From a virus: 40,885 nucleotides of DNA. Below the pieces are notes generated by a model. That model did no database searches, was not told the DNA's origin, and saw only the letters and a list, made by a program, of their open reading frames with translations. The translations under genes and the position numbers were made by a program. Location: the IMG/VR virus record IMGVR_UViG_3300036820_000038, positions 1 through 40,885 of that record. One strand, given 5' to 3'. Below, one piece after another: positions 1 to 40,885 of the stretch (position 1 is the stretch's first letter; each line of letters opens with the position of its first letter).

Positions 1-205
1 TATATTCAGGCGTATCTTTCATGAAACCATCAAATGATTCCACATAAAATTGATTTTTCCTATAATATTCTCTGATTTTTAAAAAAGATTCTTCATTTGG
101 AACTACCAACTTTATACATTTCTCAGCAAAATCTAAAGCAGATATAATTTTTTCATCATAAGACAAATTATCCTCCCAATTTATTGTTTTTATTCCATAA
201 ATCAT
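1..205 (-). CDS. Hypothetical protein, 3' part outside window
   Basis: An open frame runs leftwards from an ATG at 205-203 to the window edge without a stop, giving 68 residues that start MIYGIKTINWED. The reading is rich in Lys, Glu and aromatic residues, as expected for a soluble protein, with no signal peptide or membrane segment. The ribosome site is weak. I do not recognise the family. It lies beyond the tRNA-Asn gene and could be host or phage, since the attachment region at 471-710 suggests that phage DNA may extend left of the integrase. Confidence 0.55.
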   Translation of the reverse strand, partial: MIYGIKTINWEDNLSYDEKIISALDFAEKCIKLVVPNEESFLKIREYYRKNQFYVESFDGFMKDTPEY

Positions 206-319: not shown

Positions 320-395
320 TGGCTCCCCGCGACGGATTCGAACCGCCGACAAAGTGATTAACAGCCACTTGCTCTACCAACTGAGCTATCGGGGA
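320..395 (-). tRNA. tRNA-Asn (anticodon GTT)
   Basis: Read on the minus strand, this 76-base segment folds as a full tRNA. The acceptor stem starts TCCCCGA, the D arm is GCTC/GAGC, the anticodon loop is CTGTTAA with anticodon GTT, the T arm has loop TTCGAAT, and CCA is encoded. The seventh acceptor pair (A7 with G66) is mismatched; everything else pairs well. It lies between the cut-off gene and the attachment region, so it may be a host gene or a phage-borne tRNA. Confidence 0.95.
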
Positions 396-546
396 ATATG
401 AAAACATGTTCACTTTTTTTATTTGTTGACACAAGAGATTTTTTTAGAATAATTTCAGCAAGAAACTAAGTTGTTATCTATTTGTTATCTACCTTTTTTT
501 GAGAAAGAAAATTTATTTAAAATCAGTTAGTTAGGTGGTATCAATT

Positions 547-596
547 CAACGTTGCCAAGGTTGGGGTCGAGGGTTCGAATCCCTTCGCCCGCTCCA
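547..596 (+). pseudogene. 3' half of tRNA-Gly(GCC), attachment core
   Basis: The segment holds an anticodon loop TTGCCAA (552-558), a variable region, a T arm with loop TTCGAAT (574-580), the acceptor strand CGCCCGC (586-592), U73 and CCA. The upstream 26 bases do not contain the matching GCGGGCG strand or a D arm, so it cannot be a functional tRNA. The anticodon stem has a G-G mismatch at its loop end (551/559), suggesting that identity with the real tRNA-Gly begins at about 552. Tyrosine phage integrases commonly recombine at this point in tRNA genes. Confidence 0.8.
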
Positions 597-624
597 GTAA
601 AAATACAAGTCACTCCTTATCTTC

Positions 625-637
625 TTAACCATTTAAG
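625..637. repeat. 13-bp inverted-repeat partner of 249-261, CtrA-like half-site
   Basis: TTAACCATTTAAG lies between the tRNA-Gly core and the integrase promoter. It contains TTAACCAT, a CtrA half-site, and TTAA twice with a 4-base gap. The full CtrA site TTAA-N7-TTAA is not present. See the partner copy at 249-261. Confidence 0.45.
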
Positions 638-681
638 CATCCCAAATTTACCCATGAGATCCCCCAAGATCCCTTTTTATC

Positions 682-710
682 TTGACAATTTGTTATCTAG
701 TTGTTATCTA
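682..710 (+). promoter_or_regulatory. Integrase promoter overlapping arm-type repeats
   Basis: TTGACA (682-687), a 17-base spacer and TATCTA (705-710) form a good sigma-70 promoter for the integrase at 746. Both copies of the right-hand TTGTTATCTA pair (690-710) lie in the spacer and -10, so integrase bound there would block its own promoter. In the leader, TCCGA (714-718) can pair with TCGGA (730-734), which includes the start of the Shine-Dalgarno sequence. Confidence 0.6.
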
Positions 711-745: not shown

Positions 746-1963
746 ATGCCTAAGTTAACAAAACAAGTTATCGATTCCCATGGGAAAAAAGAGAAGCTGT
801 ACACTCTATGGGATACCGAAGTGAAAGGATTTGGATGTAGAGTTCAACCGTCAGGAAAAAAGATATATATATATCTTTACCGCACACGTAATGATCCAAA
901 ACTGAAATATCTCACAATAGGAGTACATGGTTCTATTACGATAGATACAGCACGCGAAATTGTGAAAGGATGGTCCGCAGATGTGGCCCGAGGGAATGAC
1001 CCAAAACAATCTTCTAACATTGAAGTGGAAAAGAAAATTGAAAAAGAAGTTACTTTTGAAGAATTTTTTCAAATATTTACAGAAAAACATCGAAATATTG
1101 AAAGTAAACAATTAAATTTAAAAACAGAACAATGGAGTATTAACAAATGGATATTACCATTTTTTGGTAAAAAAAAACTTTCTGAAATCTCAAAAAAGGA
1201 TATATTAGCTTTTAAAGATGTTATGAAAAAGGTCCCAGGAGCTTTCAATAGATGTTTTAATATAGTTCGAGCTGCCTTTAATAAAGCTGAAGAATGGGAG
1301 TTTATCCCCAAAACAATTAATCCTTGCAATAAAATTACTAAGTATCCTGAAAAAAAGATGGAAAGATTTCTATCGAATTCTGAGCTACACACCTTAGAAT
1401 CTATTTTAAATTCAGAAGATATTTTAAAAATATATAATAAAGGATATGGATTTTCCATTTATGCAATTAATGCTCTTAAATTAATAATTTATACAGGATG
1501 TCGTAAAAATGAAGTTCTTTCACTTAAGTGGGAAGATGTATATTTGGAAGAGAATTATTTTCATCTTAAAGATAGCAAAGGAGGAGAAAGAATTGTTCCA
1601 CTAAACAGAATATCTATTGATATCCTATCCAAAACACCCAAGCTTTTAGGTAATCCTTACGTTTTTCCATCGATAACAACCAAAAGCTCTTTTGCAGTAA
1701 CAAAGAACCATTTATCCCCAAGTGGCCTCAACCGTTTATGGAACACAATTCGGAACGCCATAGACTGCAAGGATGTCCGCATTCACGATTTGCGTCATAG
1801 CTTTGCATCCTTCGCCATTAAAAAAGGCATTGATATCTTCCGTGTAGCTAAGCTATTAGGTCATAAGGATATTAAAACTACAATGCGCTATGCACATATT
1901 TCAAAAGAGGATATGATTAGCGCATCTAATGTAGTAGGGGAGATATTTGGAAATGGAATATAA
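746..1963 (+). CDS. int: Tyrosine-family site-specific integrase
   Basis: This 405-residue protein should carry out phage integration and excision at a tRNA-Gly gene. Residues 1-95 match the DUF4102-type arm-binding domain of P4/Sf6-like integrases. A SAM-like core-binding domain follows (about 100-195), then the catalytic domain. The catalytic residues can be read: R253 in TGCRKNE, K278, H347 and R350 in HDLRH, H373 in LLGHKD, and the nucleophile Y382. Length is normal and no active residue is missing. The start ATG at 746 follows GGAG by 10 bases. The attachment core lies 150 bp upstream, and the next gene overlaps the 3' end. Confidence 0.95.
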   Translation: MPKLTKQVIDSHGKKEKLYTLWDTEVKGFGCRVQPSGKKIYIYLYRTRNDPKLKYLTIGVHGSITIDTAREIVKGWSADVARGNDPKQSSNIEVEKKIEKEVTFEEFFQIFTEKHRNIESKQLNLKTEQWSINKWILPFFGKKKLSEISKKDILAFKDVMKKVPGAFNRCFNIVRAAFNKAEEWEFIPKTINPCNKITKYPEKKMERFLSNSELHTLESILNSEDILKIYNKGYGFSIYAINALKLIIYTGCRKNEVLSLKWEDVYLEENYFHLKDSKGGERIVPLNRISIDILSKTPKLLGNPYVFPSITTKSSFAVTKNHLSPSGLNRLWNTIRNAIDCKDVRIHDLRHSFASFAIKKGIDIFRVAKLLGHKDIKTTMRYAHISKEDMISASNVVGEIFGNGI

Positions 1964-27335: not shown

Positions 27336-27806
27336 CTATTCTTTAGTTACGTAAGTTGGATCAGAAATAACCCAGAAAATTTTATCATCGTTCACGACAT
27401 GCATAAAAGTTCCACGGTAGAGAAGCTGAGTTCCTTCATGGCGTGGATACACCACAAAATCTCCTATTTTGCACCAGGGGCCTGTATGCTTAAATCGATC
27501 GCCTTGATAACAATCTGGCCCCATAGCTACTACGAGGCCAACACAAGTTTGGTAGCGTTCCATACTTTTCGCAGTGTCTGTTTTAAGAATTGATGAAACT
27601 ATTTTTTTCCCAGATTTGTCATAAAAAACGCATTTGTTATCATCATCAGTCAGATGAAGTTTTAAAGTAATCTGATATCCACAGGTTCTAGGAGGCTCAA
27701 ATCCTAGAGATTCAGTGATCAAATCTTTAGCTTTTTGTTCTTCGTGCGGTTCAATATAACTATGCGTAGATTCTCGAGTAGGCGATGTTTTTTGTTTTTT
27801 ACTCAT
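27336..27806 (-). CDS. Phage GroES-like co-chaperonin
   Basis: A 156-residue protein. Residues about 88-152 follow the Cpn10 pattern: GLVVAMGPDCYQG, then WCKIGDFVVYPRHEGTQLLY and VNDDKIFWVISDP, matching G.VVAVGPG...G....VK.GD.V.....GT......... .EDDI..VI. The N-terminal 40 residues are a polar extension. Phage Cpn10 proteins (for example T4 gp31) join host GroEL to fold the capsid protein. Here it stands between portal and scaffold, a fitting place. The mobile loop is not clearly conserved. GGGGGC precedes the ATG. Confidence 0.7.
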   Translation of the reverse strand: MSKKQKTSPTRESTHSYIEPHEEQKAKDLITESLGFEPPRTCGYQITLKLHLTDDDNKCVFYDKSGKKIVSSILKTDTAKSMERYQTCVGLVVAMGPDCYQGDRFKHTGPWCKIGDFVVYPRHEGTQLLYRGTFMHVVNDDKIFWVISDPTYVTKE

Positions 27807-36252: not shown

Positions 36253-36927
36253 TCAATCGGGATCAGATATCATATAGCCACGGCCTCGAGTGGTTTTGAT
36301 GAAGCCGTTGCCAAGCGTGGATCTGAGTTTCTTACGGATGTAGCTGATCCACACATGCACAGTTCTAGTATAGGGTCTATCAACCTCATGGAGATAGATG
36401 TGATCTAAGATTTGATCTTCAGTAACATTTTTGTTTTTGTTGAGACATAAGAATTCTAAGATTTCATATTCCTTTACAGTTAGAGCAATGATCTTATCAT
36501 CGACTAACACACGATAGCAGCTAGGCACGATGGTGAGTCTGCCTACATGGATTTGCTCGCCTAAATGACCGTGTCGGTGGCGAACAAGAAGTTTAACTCG
36601 TTCCACGAATTCAGCTAGATTGAAAGGGATTGACATACACTCGTCGGCACCAGATTGGAATGCCCTGACTTTGAGATCAGCATTGTTCATTCCACAGAGG
36701 AACATGATAGGAGTACGTACCTTTTGAGCTCGCATCTGCTTTAAGACTTGGAAACCATCACTGTCTGCAAGCATCCGTCCCATAATAATGAGGTCATAGT
36801 CATAGATCTTTGCTAGCTCTAGACCTTCCTCACCCAAGGATGTAACCTCAATAGCGAACTCATTCTTAAGACGATTCTGGATAAGTTCTTTAGTATTCTC
36901 GTTAGTTTCTATTAGTAATATTTCCAT
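36253..36927 (-). CDS. CtrA-like response regulator without phosphorylation residues
   Basis: A 224-residue OmpR/PhoB-type regulator. The receiver keeps the CtrA-like stretch SLGEEGLELAKIYDYDLIIM (about 30-49), and the winged-helix domain (about 125-224) has LTVKEYEILEFLCLNKNKNV and TTRGRGYMISDPD, close to CtrA. In the receiver, CtrA D51 is Gly (G50), the acidic pair D8-D9 is T8-N9, the Lys of KPF is I100 and the switch Ser is C78. It therefore cannot be phosphorylated in the usual way. It is read toward the terminase genes from an upstream promoter. Likely a constitutive phage activator, or a competitor of host CtrA. Confidence 0.85.
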   Translation of the reverse strand: MEILLIETNENTKELIQNRLKNEFAIEVTSLGEEGLELAKIYDYDLIIMGRMLADSDGFQVLKQMRAQKVRTPIMFLCGMNNADLKVRAFQSGADECMSIPFNLAEFVERVKLLVRHRHGHLGEQIHVGRLTIVPSCYRVLVDDKIIALTVKEYEILEFLCLNKNKNVTEDQILDHIYLHEVDRPYTRTVHVWISYIRKKLRSTLGNGFIKTTRGRGYMISDPD

Positions 36928-37498: not shown

Positions 37499-38190
37499 GA
37501 AAAATATACACTTAAAAAACACTTATATAAATCCTTTTATACTCTCTATAATTATATAACAAGAGATATAGTGTGGAGAAGAAAATTTTGTGGGAAAGAG
37601 GAGGGGAGAAAGGGACCTCCCGCTAGCGTTTAAATCTAATCCTAAACACCACACAATCCAACAACCCATCTCTGAACGATCTTCTCCCTCTAAACTACCT
37701 AAACCTTCATGGATCTACACACTATTCTACACCCTATACACACAATCCAATCACTCTTATAATCTCTCAATCTATTCAACAAGTTGCACCACCACTCCAC
37801 TTCCTTAGCGTGTGTATAATACCGTGTAAAAAATCAACTTTTTTTAAGCTTTTCACTCACCACTCCTCCAATCTTTCACAACTCACCCCTCTTTGACTCC
37901 TCAGACTAACATCCTTTCATGGCAAACCTCCTCCAATTACGCTAAAACCTCCATACATGGCCCGTGAAGGCACCTAAACACCATTCGGTCATATTCCTAC
38001 CAACTTACCCCTTACATGCATTGTGTGGCGAGATATGGGGCTTCCAGACACACTTCACTTCCCTATTCCAAACTCAATCTACAACTTCACTCAGATTATG
38101 GCGTTTTTTTCTCGCGCGCGCGTTTTCTAATCCAATATAATACTATATAATTTAATATAAAGACTCATTTTCTTTAAGGAAAATGAGTCT
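37499..38190 (+). ncRNA. Candidate long non-coding, G-poor transcript
   Basis: The stretch starts at the perfect promoter and ends at the first of two hairpins (38161-38190). After a purine-rich part (37571-37616) the plus strand becomes very poor in G: about 18 G in 37621-37920, while C is several times more frequent. Reading frames here are short and of unlikely composition. It holds a 10-bp CG run (38113-38122). It may be an untranslated early leader, an origin or packaging region, or a regulatory RNA; the sequence alone does not decide. Confidence 0.45.
38161..38190. terminator. 12-bp hairpin, probable bidirectional terminator
   Basis: AGACTCATTTTC and GAAAATGAGTCT form a perfect 12-bp stem with loop TTTAAG. 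Flanks are AT-rich on both sides without a long T run. Its centre ATTTTCTTTAAGGAAAAT is the reverse complement of the centre of the next hairpin. Confidence 0.65.
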
Positions 38191-38236
38191 ATTACAATAC
38201 AACATATATAGTTATATTATTAATTAACTAATATTA

Positions 38237-38270
38237 AGAGACCTATTTTCCTTAAAGAAAATAGGTCTCT
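38237..38270. terminator. 14-bp hairpin, mirror partner of 38161-38190
   Basis: AGAGACCTATTTTC pairs with GAAAATAGGTCTCT over 14 bp, loop CTTAAA, then TCTTATAATA. It probably stops transcription in one or both directions. Its loop is fully complementary to the loop of the hairpin at 38161-38190, so the two RNAs could kiss. Confidence 0.65.
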
Positions 38271-38461
38271 TCTTATAATACATAAGATTATATATAGTAA
38301 TCTACTCTTCTTATCTTTCTTTCTTATCTTTTCTAAAATGATATAAGAGTGTGTACCTTCTATGAGTTTTGTGTGTGAAATAAAGAAAAGGAGTTGTGAA
38401 GAGGAATAAGATTGAGGTAATGTGTGCCAATTGATCACAGCTACAACCCAGGAAGAATTAA

Positions 38462-40094: not shown

Positions 40095-40454
40095 ATGGAA
40101 CGACAGATGCTTGCCAAAGAAACTCATGACCTTATCCAACAGCTCCATGCAGATGGTATGCCAAAGTTAAGAATTGCTAACCAATTAAATCTTACGCATA
40201 GAACAGTAGTTAAACATATTAAGAATCCCATTTGGAAGCCATATAAGCGTGCTAATATGGGAGCAGCAGACCATAAAAATAAGAAAGATAAACTGCCGCT
40301 ATTAAAGTCTTTATCTGTTCGTGAGCTGTTGGATATGGACTTTAGAAAGAGAGAGCACGACCGTACTATTGCGGCTTATGAAGATCGGGAAGCCGAACTC
40401 TCCATTGCGGCTTATGAAGATCGCATGATGAAATCACGAACTGGATGCAGTTGA
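40095..40454 (+). CDS. Helix-turn-helix protein
   Basis: A 119-residue basic protein. Residues 6-36 read LAKETHDLIQQLHADGMPKL...IANQLNLTHRTVVKHI, a classical helix-turn-helix of resolvase/IS21 type. The rest is charged, with a duplicated IAAYEDR encoded by a perfect 20-bp repeat (40368-40387 and 40404-40423). The frame is open upstream to ATG 39963, but that part includes a stem-loop and lacks protein-like composition, so ATG 40095 or 40107 is preferred. It may be a small DNA-binding regulator or the stump of a transposase. Confidence 0.6.
   Translation: MERQMLAKETHDLIQQLHADGMPKLRIANQLNLTHRTVVKHIKNPIWKPYKRANMGAADHKNKKDKLPLLKSLSVRELLDMDFRKREHDRTIAAYEDREAELSIAAYEDRMMKSRTGCS
40368..40423 (+). 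repeat. 20-bp direct repeat, 36-bp period
   Basis: ATTGCGGCTTATGAAGATCG occurs at 40368-40387 and again at 40404-40423, in frame, encoding IAAYEDR twice near the end of the helix-turn-helix protein. Confidence 0.9.
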
Positions 40455-40505: not shown

Positions 40506-40537
40506 TTGTTGACACTCATATTCTTCTCTATAATAAT
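40506..40537 (+). promoter_or_regulatory. Promoter of the tRNA methyltransferase gene
   Basis: Two readings are possible: TTGACA (40509-40514) with AATAAT (40532-40537), or TTGTTG (40506-40511) with perfect TATAAT (40529-40534); each has a 17-base spacer. The leader can form a stem between GTGACACTA and TAGTGCCAC (one mismatch). Confidence 0.65.
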
Positions 40538-40607: not shown

Positions 40608-40885
40608 ATGGCTGACAACAGCATACACACCTTAGAAAAAAATCCAAGAGCAGAATTAGATTATACGGTTGATAAGTTTATAAATGGACTTATTACAGTG
40701 AAACAACCTAAGCACGGATTCCGTGCAGGATGTGATTCTATTTTTTTGGCAGCCTCTATTCAACCAGAACCAGAGACACGCGTTTTGGATGTAGGCGCAG
40801 GTGTTGGTGTGATATCTCTTGCATTAGCAAAACGATGTCCTGATGTAAAAATAGTGGCACTAGAGAATCACCCAGATCTTGTATC
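40608..40885 (+). CDS. tRNA1(Val) adenine-N6 methyltransferase-like protein, 3' part outside window
   Basis: The first 92 codons are present. After a polar start (MADNSIHTLEKNPRAELD) come FINGLITVKQPKHGFRAGCD and SIFLAASI, then VLDVGAGVGVISLALAKRCP, the SAM-binding motif I of class I methyltransferases, and IVALENH, motif II. G.l.l.QPk.GfRaG.DailLAA is the signature of the TrmN6/YfiC family in alphaproteobacteria, which methylates A37 of tRNA1(Val) in E. coli. AAAGGAG precedes the ATG by four bases. It is a normal chromosomal gene type and suggests that host DNA starts at or before this point. Confidence 0.85.
   Translation, partial: MADNSIHTLEKNPRAELDYTVDKFINGLITVKQPKHGFRAGCDSIFLAASIQPEPETRVLDVGAGVGVISLALAKRCPDVKIVALENHPDLV

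Follow-up and report, generated by a model that had tools for sequence, protein, structure and literature searches.

Paired arm sites on both sides of a tRNA-Gly core mark a likely intact phage attP in a 40,885-bp virus record

We analyzed an entire 40,885-bp IMG/VR virus record (hereafter, the window) and found that positions 471-710 have the layout of a complete, standard attP rather than that of the edge of an ordinary integrated phage. The case for reading this region as an attP is strong, and the likely integration target is tRNA-Gly(GCC). It is also probable that the region is the attP of a temperate phage whose DNA was circular or concatemeric (infecting, induced or episomal), and that the contig is an open fragment of the circle. 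The site consists of the following elements and adjoins the integrase gene.

471-491, plus strand: P-arm pair, two putative integrase arm-type sites TTGTTATCTA with an 11-bp step (exact repeats; an architecture common to the integrase family)
547-551, plus strand: anticodon stem 5' arm CAACG (CAACC in the host), presumptive left half-site of the crossover region (alignment with host tRNA-Gly)
552-596, plus strand: attP common core, corresponding to tRNA-Gly(GCC) from its anticodon loop through the 3' CCA, within which TTGCCAA (552-558) is the likely 7-bp overlap (tRNA-Gly alignment)
690-710, plus strand: P'-arm pair, two putative arm sites TTGTTATCTA with an 11-bp step, 35 bp before int (exact repeats)
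746-1963, plus strand: tyrosine integrase of 405 aa with Arm-DNA-bind_3, SAM-like and catalytic domains (Pfam)

A preliminary description of this DNA had placed repeat pairs with an 11-bp step on both sides of a tRNA-Gly 3' half, and this was borne out. TTGTTATCTA occurs in the 40,885-bp window as four exact copies, starting at 471, 482, 690 and 701 and all on the plus strand, which form two pairs (471-491 and 690-710) on either side of 552-596; no other step-11 pair of 10 nt or more exists in the window. Two pairs of one unit arose in none of 5000 dinucleotide-preserving shuffles of positions 1-745, and any step-11 pair of at least 10 nt arose in 11 of the 5000. From 552 to 596, all 45 nt match alphaproteobacterial tRNA-Gly(GCC) over its 3' portion, anticodon loop to CCA, and immediately 5' of this core CAAC (547-550) also agrees with the host tRNA-Gly, while position 551 is G where the host has C. 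The P pair is separated from the core by 60 bp, the core from the P' pair by 93 bp, and the P' pair from the int start codon by 35 bp. Within the integrase (746-1963), Pfam PF13356, PF14659 and PF00589 all scored above cut-off.

The whole contig was searched for a full tRNA-Gly gene and for extra cores, as the preliminary description had proposed, and neither is present. ARAGORN found no whole tRNA-Gly in the window and no 5' half adjoins the core, the sole tRNA being a tRNA-Asn at 320-395 on the minus strand; likewise, no core 12-mer has a second copy in the 40,885 bp, which confirms the earlier observation that no second core lies up to position 40,885, the end of the whole virus record. A possible tRNA-Gly 5' half, raised by 85-86% matches over 518-596 in three loci (L132, L117 and L146), was dropped because the window yields no tRNA-Gly there. 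No TTGTTATCTA arm pair was found in 385 alphaproteobacterial genomes, and two viral contigs with a matching arm pair were set aside, since no tRNA was found alongside and the contigs looked unrelated. As in the attP of a tRNA-targeting tyrosine integrase, an int gene with arm-binding and catalytic domains adjoins the site, the core is the 3' part of a host tRNA without the 5' half, and arm-type sites flank this core on both sides, features on which the earlier suggestion of an intact attP stands. What would mark an integrated prophage end (attL or attR), a host tRNA 5' half or host downstream DNA replacing one arm, is absent. The presence of P and P' arms together therefore indicates that, when sequenced, the DNA was not integrated here.

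To survey the integrase family, relatives were drawn from genomes, viral contigs and phages, and 51 non-redundant upstream regions were inspected. Direct-repeat pairs with a step of 11 numbered 29 in these regions, compared with no more than 6 for each of the other steps between 6 and 30, and 27 of the 51 regions had such a pair, with unit sequences unrelated to each other. These counts make step-11 pairs a hallmark of the integrase family, and the 11-bp step would fit two integrase arm sites one helical turn apart. Among the 27 regions with a pair, an identical unit was paired on both sides only in the window and in the isolated Acinetobacter phage Acba_1, whereas chromosomal family copies had one arm pair, as expected of attL or attR. 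This contrast between one-arm chromosomal copies and the two-arm window and Acba_1 argues that the window site is an attP and not a host junction, and it backs the earlier reasoning that a host junction should miss one arm. The preliminary description had named a tRNA-Gly 5' half left of a core, and repeats absent from relatives, as evidence to the contrary; instead, the repeat architecture is found in relatives and the window holds no tRNA-Gly 5' half. In this family, paired step-11 arm sites would thus distinguish an intact attP from attL or attR by sequence alone, and the presence of both pairs could aid the sorting of free and integrated phages in metagenomes.

The anatomy of this attP is ordinary, and the site is a further example of a known attP type. 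In mycobacteriophage CrimD, two pairs of arm sites surround the attP core, and L5 and Giles are noted with direct pairs (PMC3203893). Like the window, the attP sites of L5, Giles and CrimD have a common core between pairs of short arm-type sites close to int (PMC3203893); however, the arm sequence and the integrase of the window differ from theirs and its host lies outside Actinobacteria, and the second pair of CrimD is inverted, whereas both pairs of the window are direct. Acba_1 shares with the window a broad integrase family and has TTGTAGACT pairs at two places upstream of int, but its far pair has a 12-bp step and one inverted copy, and its integrase is only 23% identical. The best integrase relative (47%) belongs to tRNA-Arg elements of the alphaproteobacterial MAG G001 (L029, L193, L194 and L196), which also have a tRNA 3'-half core and a step-11 arm pair; unlike the window, they have one arm pair per site (integrated or decayed) and target tRNA-Arg. 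L193 shows a whole tRNA followed by one pair, and L194 and L196 one pair followed by the 3' half, so these sites appear to be split as expected after integration. Multiple tRNA-Arg(ACG) 3'-half copies with family arm pairs were observed across L192-L196, which suggests repeated integration at one tRNA in G001. At L029, the core and int are present without a tRNA 5' half, and a possible transposase remnant adjoins them. Sphingomonad integrases (~25% identical) at L044, L047, L048, L049 and L063 adjoin the same tRNA-Gly(GCC) 3' half in the opposite orientation.

If 471-491 represents the P arm, positions 1-551 belong to the phage. The preliminary description had listed a left flank of phage DNA carrying the tRNA-Asn gene as one of several alternatives; it follows from the attP reading and is not a separate alternative. 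Most simply, 1-551 with its diverged tRNA-Asn is the phage's other end, which meets int in the circle. Two features lie in this flank to the left of the P arm.

2-205, minus strand: ORF running off the left end, with no convincing relatives
320-395, minus strand: tRNA-Asn(GTT) with CCA, probably phage-borne (ARAGORN; at most 94% identity to sampled Alphaproteobacteria)

The best match of the tRNA-Asn in the sampled genomes was 94%, with no clear host, and its acceptor stem, as read from the sequence, has an A-G mismatch at pair 7-66. No viral contig had the same tRNA-Asn, and in a search for host synteny across 1-551 the matches were confined to the tRNA-Asn gene region. These features agree with a phage origin of 1-551 but fall short of proof, and the divergence could also reflect a host outside the sampled clades. 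We consider it highly improbable that 1-551 is host chromosome at a tRNA-Asn locus, with the repeats to the left of the core arising by coincidence. In favour of that reading, the bacterial-type tRNA-Asn shares ~90% identity with host genes, but the left pair equals the right pair in unit and step (0 of 5000 shuffles), the tRNA-Gly 5' half is missing, and the tRNA-Cys found shortly upstream of tRNA-Asn at no fewer than 9 of the 12 inspected tRNA-Asn loci in the order of G001 is absent here.

In the mechanism that we propose, the N-terminal arm-binding domain of the integrase would contact the arm-site pairs that flank the core, and strand exchange would occur in the anticodon-loop part of the core, where we infer the crossover point to lie. 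By analogy with known tRNA-targeting integrases, we would assign the core half-sites to the anticodon stem arms and the overlap to the 7-base anticodon loop. After integration, one end would consist of the host tRNA-Gly 5' half, the core, the P' arm and int, and the other of the P arm, the core and host downstream DNA; the host 5' half and the phage 3' half would leave a working tRNA-Gly upstream of int. A further element to the left of the P arm bears on the expression of int.

426-453, plus strand: promoter-like TTGACA-16-AATAAT, oriented across the P arm and core in the direction of int, for which it is a candidate circle-only promoter (consensus match)

Three such promoter-like sites occur in the window, versus 0.24 expected, and no terminator match was found within positions 300 to 800. 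By analogy, we infer a promoter function for 426-453, which could drive int in the circle only, as integration would sever it from int; in the integrated state, the tRNA-Gly promoter could take over int. In ICEKp1, ICEclc and ICEEc1, a 3'-end promoter reaches int solely in the circular form, by reading across the junction of the two ends (PMC13023037). In contrast to these elements, the window is a phage, and its putative promoter is known here solely as a consensus match. It is a candidate int promoter that can be tested in a temperate phage whose relatives include CRP-901/902 and HTVC023P.

Although the contig is incomplete, a free circle appears to be the most likely state of this DNA. The record has no terminal repeat and both of its ends cut genes; when the ends are joined, the cut ORFs stop soon after the junction. 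Closing the contig as a circle was rejected on these grounds. A scan of window proteins with Pfam, PHROGs and NCBIfam returned head, tail, packaging, integrase and regulator matches, and no polymerase, helicase or primase was recognised among the proteins scanned. The unjoined cut genes and the lack of a recognised replication module therefore indicate that the record is an open fragment, from which, at a reasonable guess, 10-20 kb is missing. Counting against the free-circle reading are the unclosed circle itself and a chromosome-type gene at the right end, which is the main observation that misfits a simple free phage.

40509-40537, plus strand: promoter-like site upstream of the TrmN6-like gene (consensus match)
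40608-40885, plus strand: TrmN6-like methyltransferase, N-terminal 92 codons, running off the right end; a typical chromosomal gene of Alphaproteobacteria

Relatives of the TrmN6-like gene were found in 234 of 289 Alphaproteobacteria genomes, with chromosomal neighbours, and none in the viral-contig scan; only 4 of 50,697 phage records had matches, two of the four being Salmonella genome pieces. Ahead of this gene, the window has no further arm pair or core to mark a phage end. Either the phage carries a TrmN6-like gene, or the contig meets host DNA here through tandem integration, deletion or chimera. If the TrmN6-like end is host flank, the contig would be chromosomal and the attP would lie inside a tandem or rearranged prophage.

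An arrangement of tandem or nested prophages in a chromosome, where 1-551 would close one element on its right and the core would link it to the int end of a second element that shares its arm sites, would give a site structure equal to that of attP and would account for the chromosome-type gene at the right end. In G001, which has multiple att copies of a tRNA-Arg 3' half together with family arm pairs, such accumulation of elements at one tRNA does take place. However, the P arm and core of the second element should precede host DNA, and the window has no further TTGTTATCTA pair or core; moreover, identical tandem copies normally collapse in assembly, and we consider this arrangement quite unlikely. 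A defective or rearranged prophage, in which the right end with replication genes and attR was deleted so that the phage abuts host trmN6, and whose left side came from an older element, is improbable. Both the TrmN6-like gene and the unrecognised replication module would fit it, as would the insertion-sequence-like genes in related phage blocks of the alphaproteobacterium G144, but the integrase and the large structural genes have open frames, the attP arms show exact repeats, neither an insertion nor a scar was recognised near 40.5 kb, and two independent events would be required. It is improbable as well that the trmN6-bearing end was joined artificially, in an assembly chimera, or by transduction, in packaged host DNA, to a genuine attP part: the scarcity of this chromosome-type gene in phage records, with two of the four matches in bacterial genome pieces, speaks for such a join, yet near 40.4-40.6 kb there is no repeat that explains a false one, save a short T-rich repeat.

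We also considered an episomal element (phage-plasmid) which retains its full tRNA-Gly attP and can integrate too, its int being driven across attP by the circle-only promoter, with relatives in G144 that share a contig with Rep_3 and ParA. G144 has relatives of the structural block (portal 41%, major capsid 60%) on two contigs, C6 (L248, L249 and L266) and C5 (L252 and L253), and both copies of the block contain insertion-sequence-like genes. On C6 (50.6 kb), the related block lies beside Rep_3 and ParA genes, which makes an episomal relative plausible. No plasmid replication or partition genes were recognised among the proteins scanned in the window, an incomplete contig, and no window-type integrase was found in G144, where the hits were distant tyrosine recombinases only. 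We regard the episome as unlikely.

By portal and terminase, the nearest named relatives of the window are Roseobacter phages CRP-901/902; the wider group takes in pelagiphage HTVC023P and, by portal, Caulobacter phage RW. All of these have portal proteins related to that of the window, and in CRP-902 and HTVC023P the terminase and major capsid are related as well. No close DNA-level phage relatives were found for 1-25000. The records of CRP-901/902, HTVC023P and RW are 52-62 kb long, compared with 40,885 bp for the window; CRP-902 and HTVC023P (52 and 61 kb) have annotated replication genes, and no integrase is annotated in the record stretches examined. CRP-810-type phages, which encode an integrase, integrate at a tRNA and are 52-68 kb in size, resemble the window in these first two respects and in a related terminase group (PMC11288001). 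However, they have a 13-bp core in tRNA-Thr and a phage tRNA-Thr, whereas the window has a 45-nt core and a tRNA of another isotype. In tRNA-dependent lysogeny, the core is short (~10 bp) and the tRNA is not rebuilt (PMC10865867); this was rejected for the window because the 45-nt core reaches CCA, and the tRNA-Asn and the target tRNA-Gly differ in isotype.

Several other features of the gene content were observed. The structural block includes a GroES-like co-chaperonin (27336-27806, minus strand), as in CRP-902 and HTVC023P. An OmpR-type response regulator (36253-36927, minus strand) is closest to CtrA (190 bits, below the curated cut-off), the master cell-cycle regulator family of Alphaproteobacteria. 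Strong inverted repeats cluster at 38161-38276, and a 20-bp exact direct repeat with a 36-bp step lies at 40368-40423, inside a small helix-turn-helix ORF.
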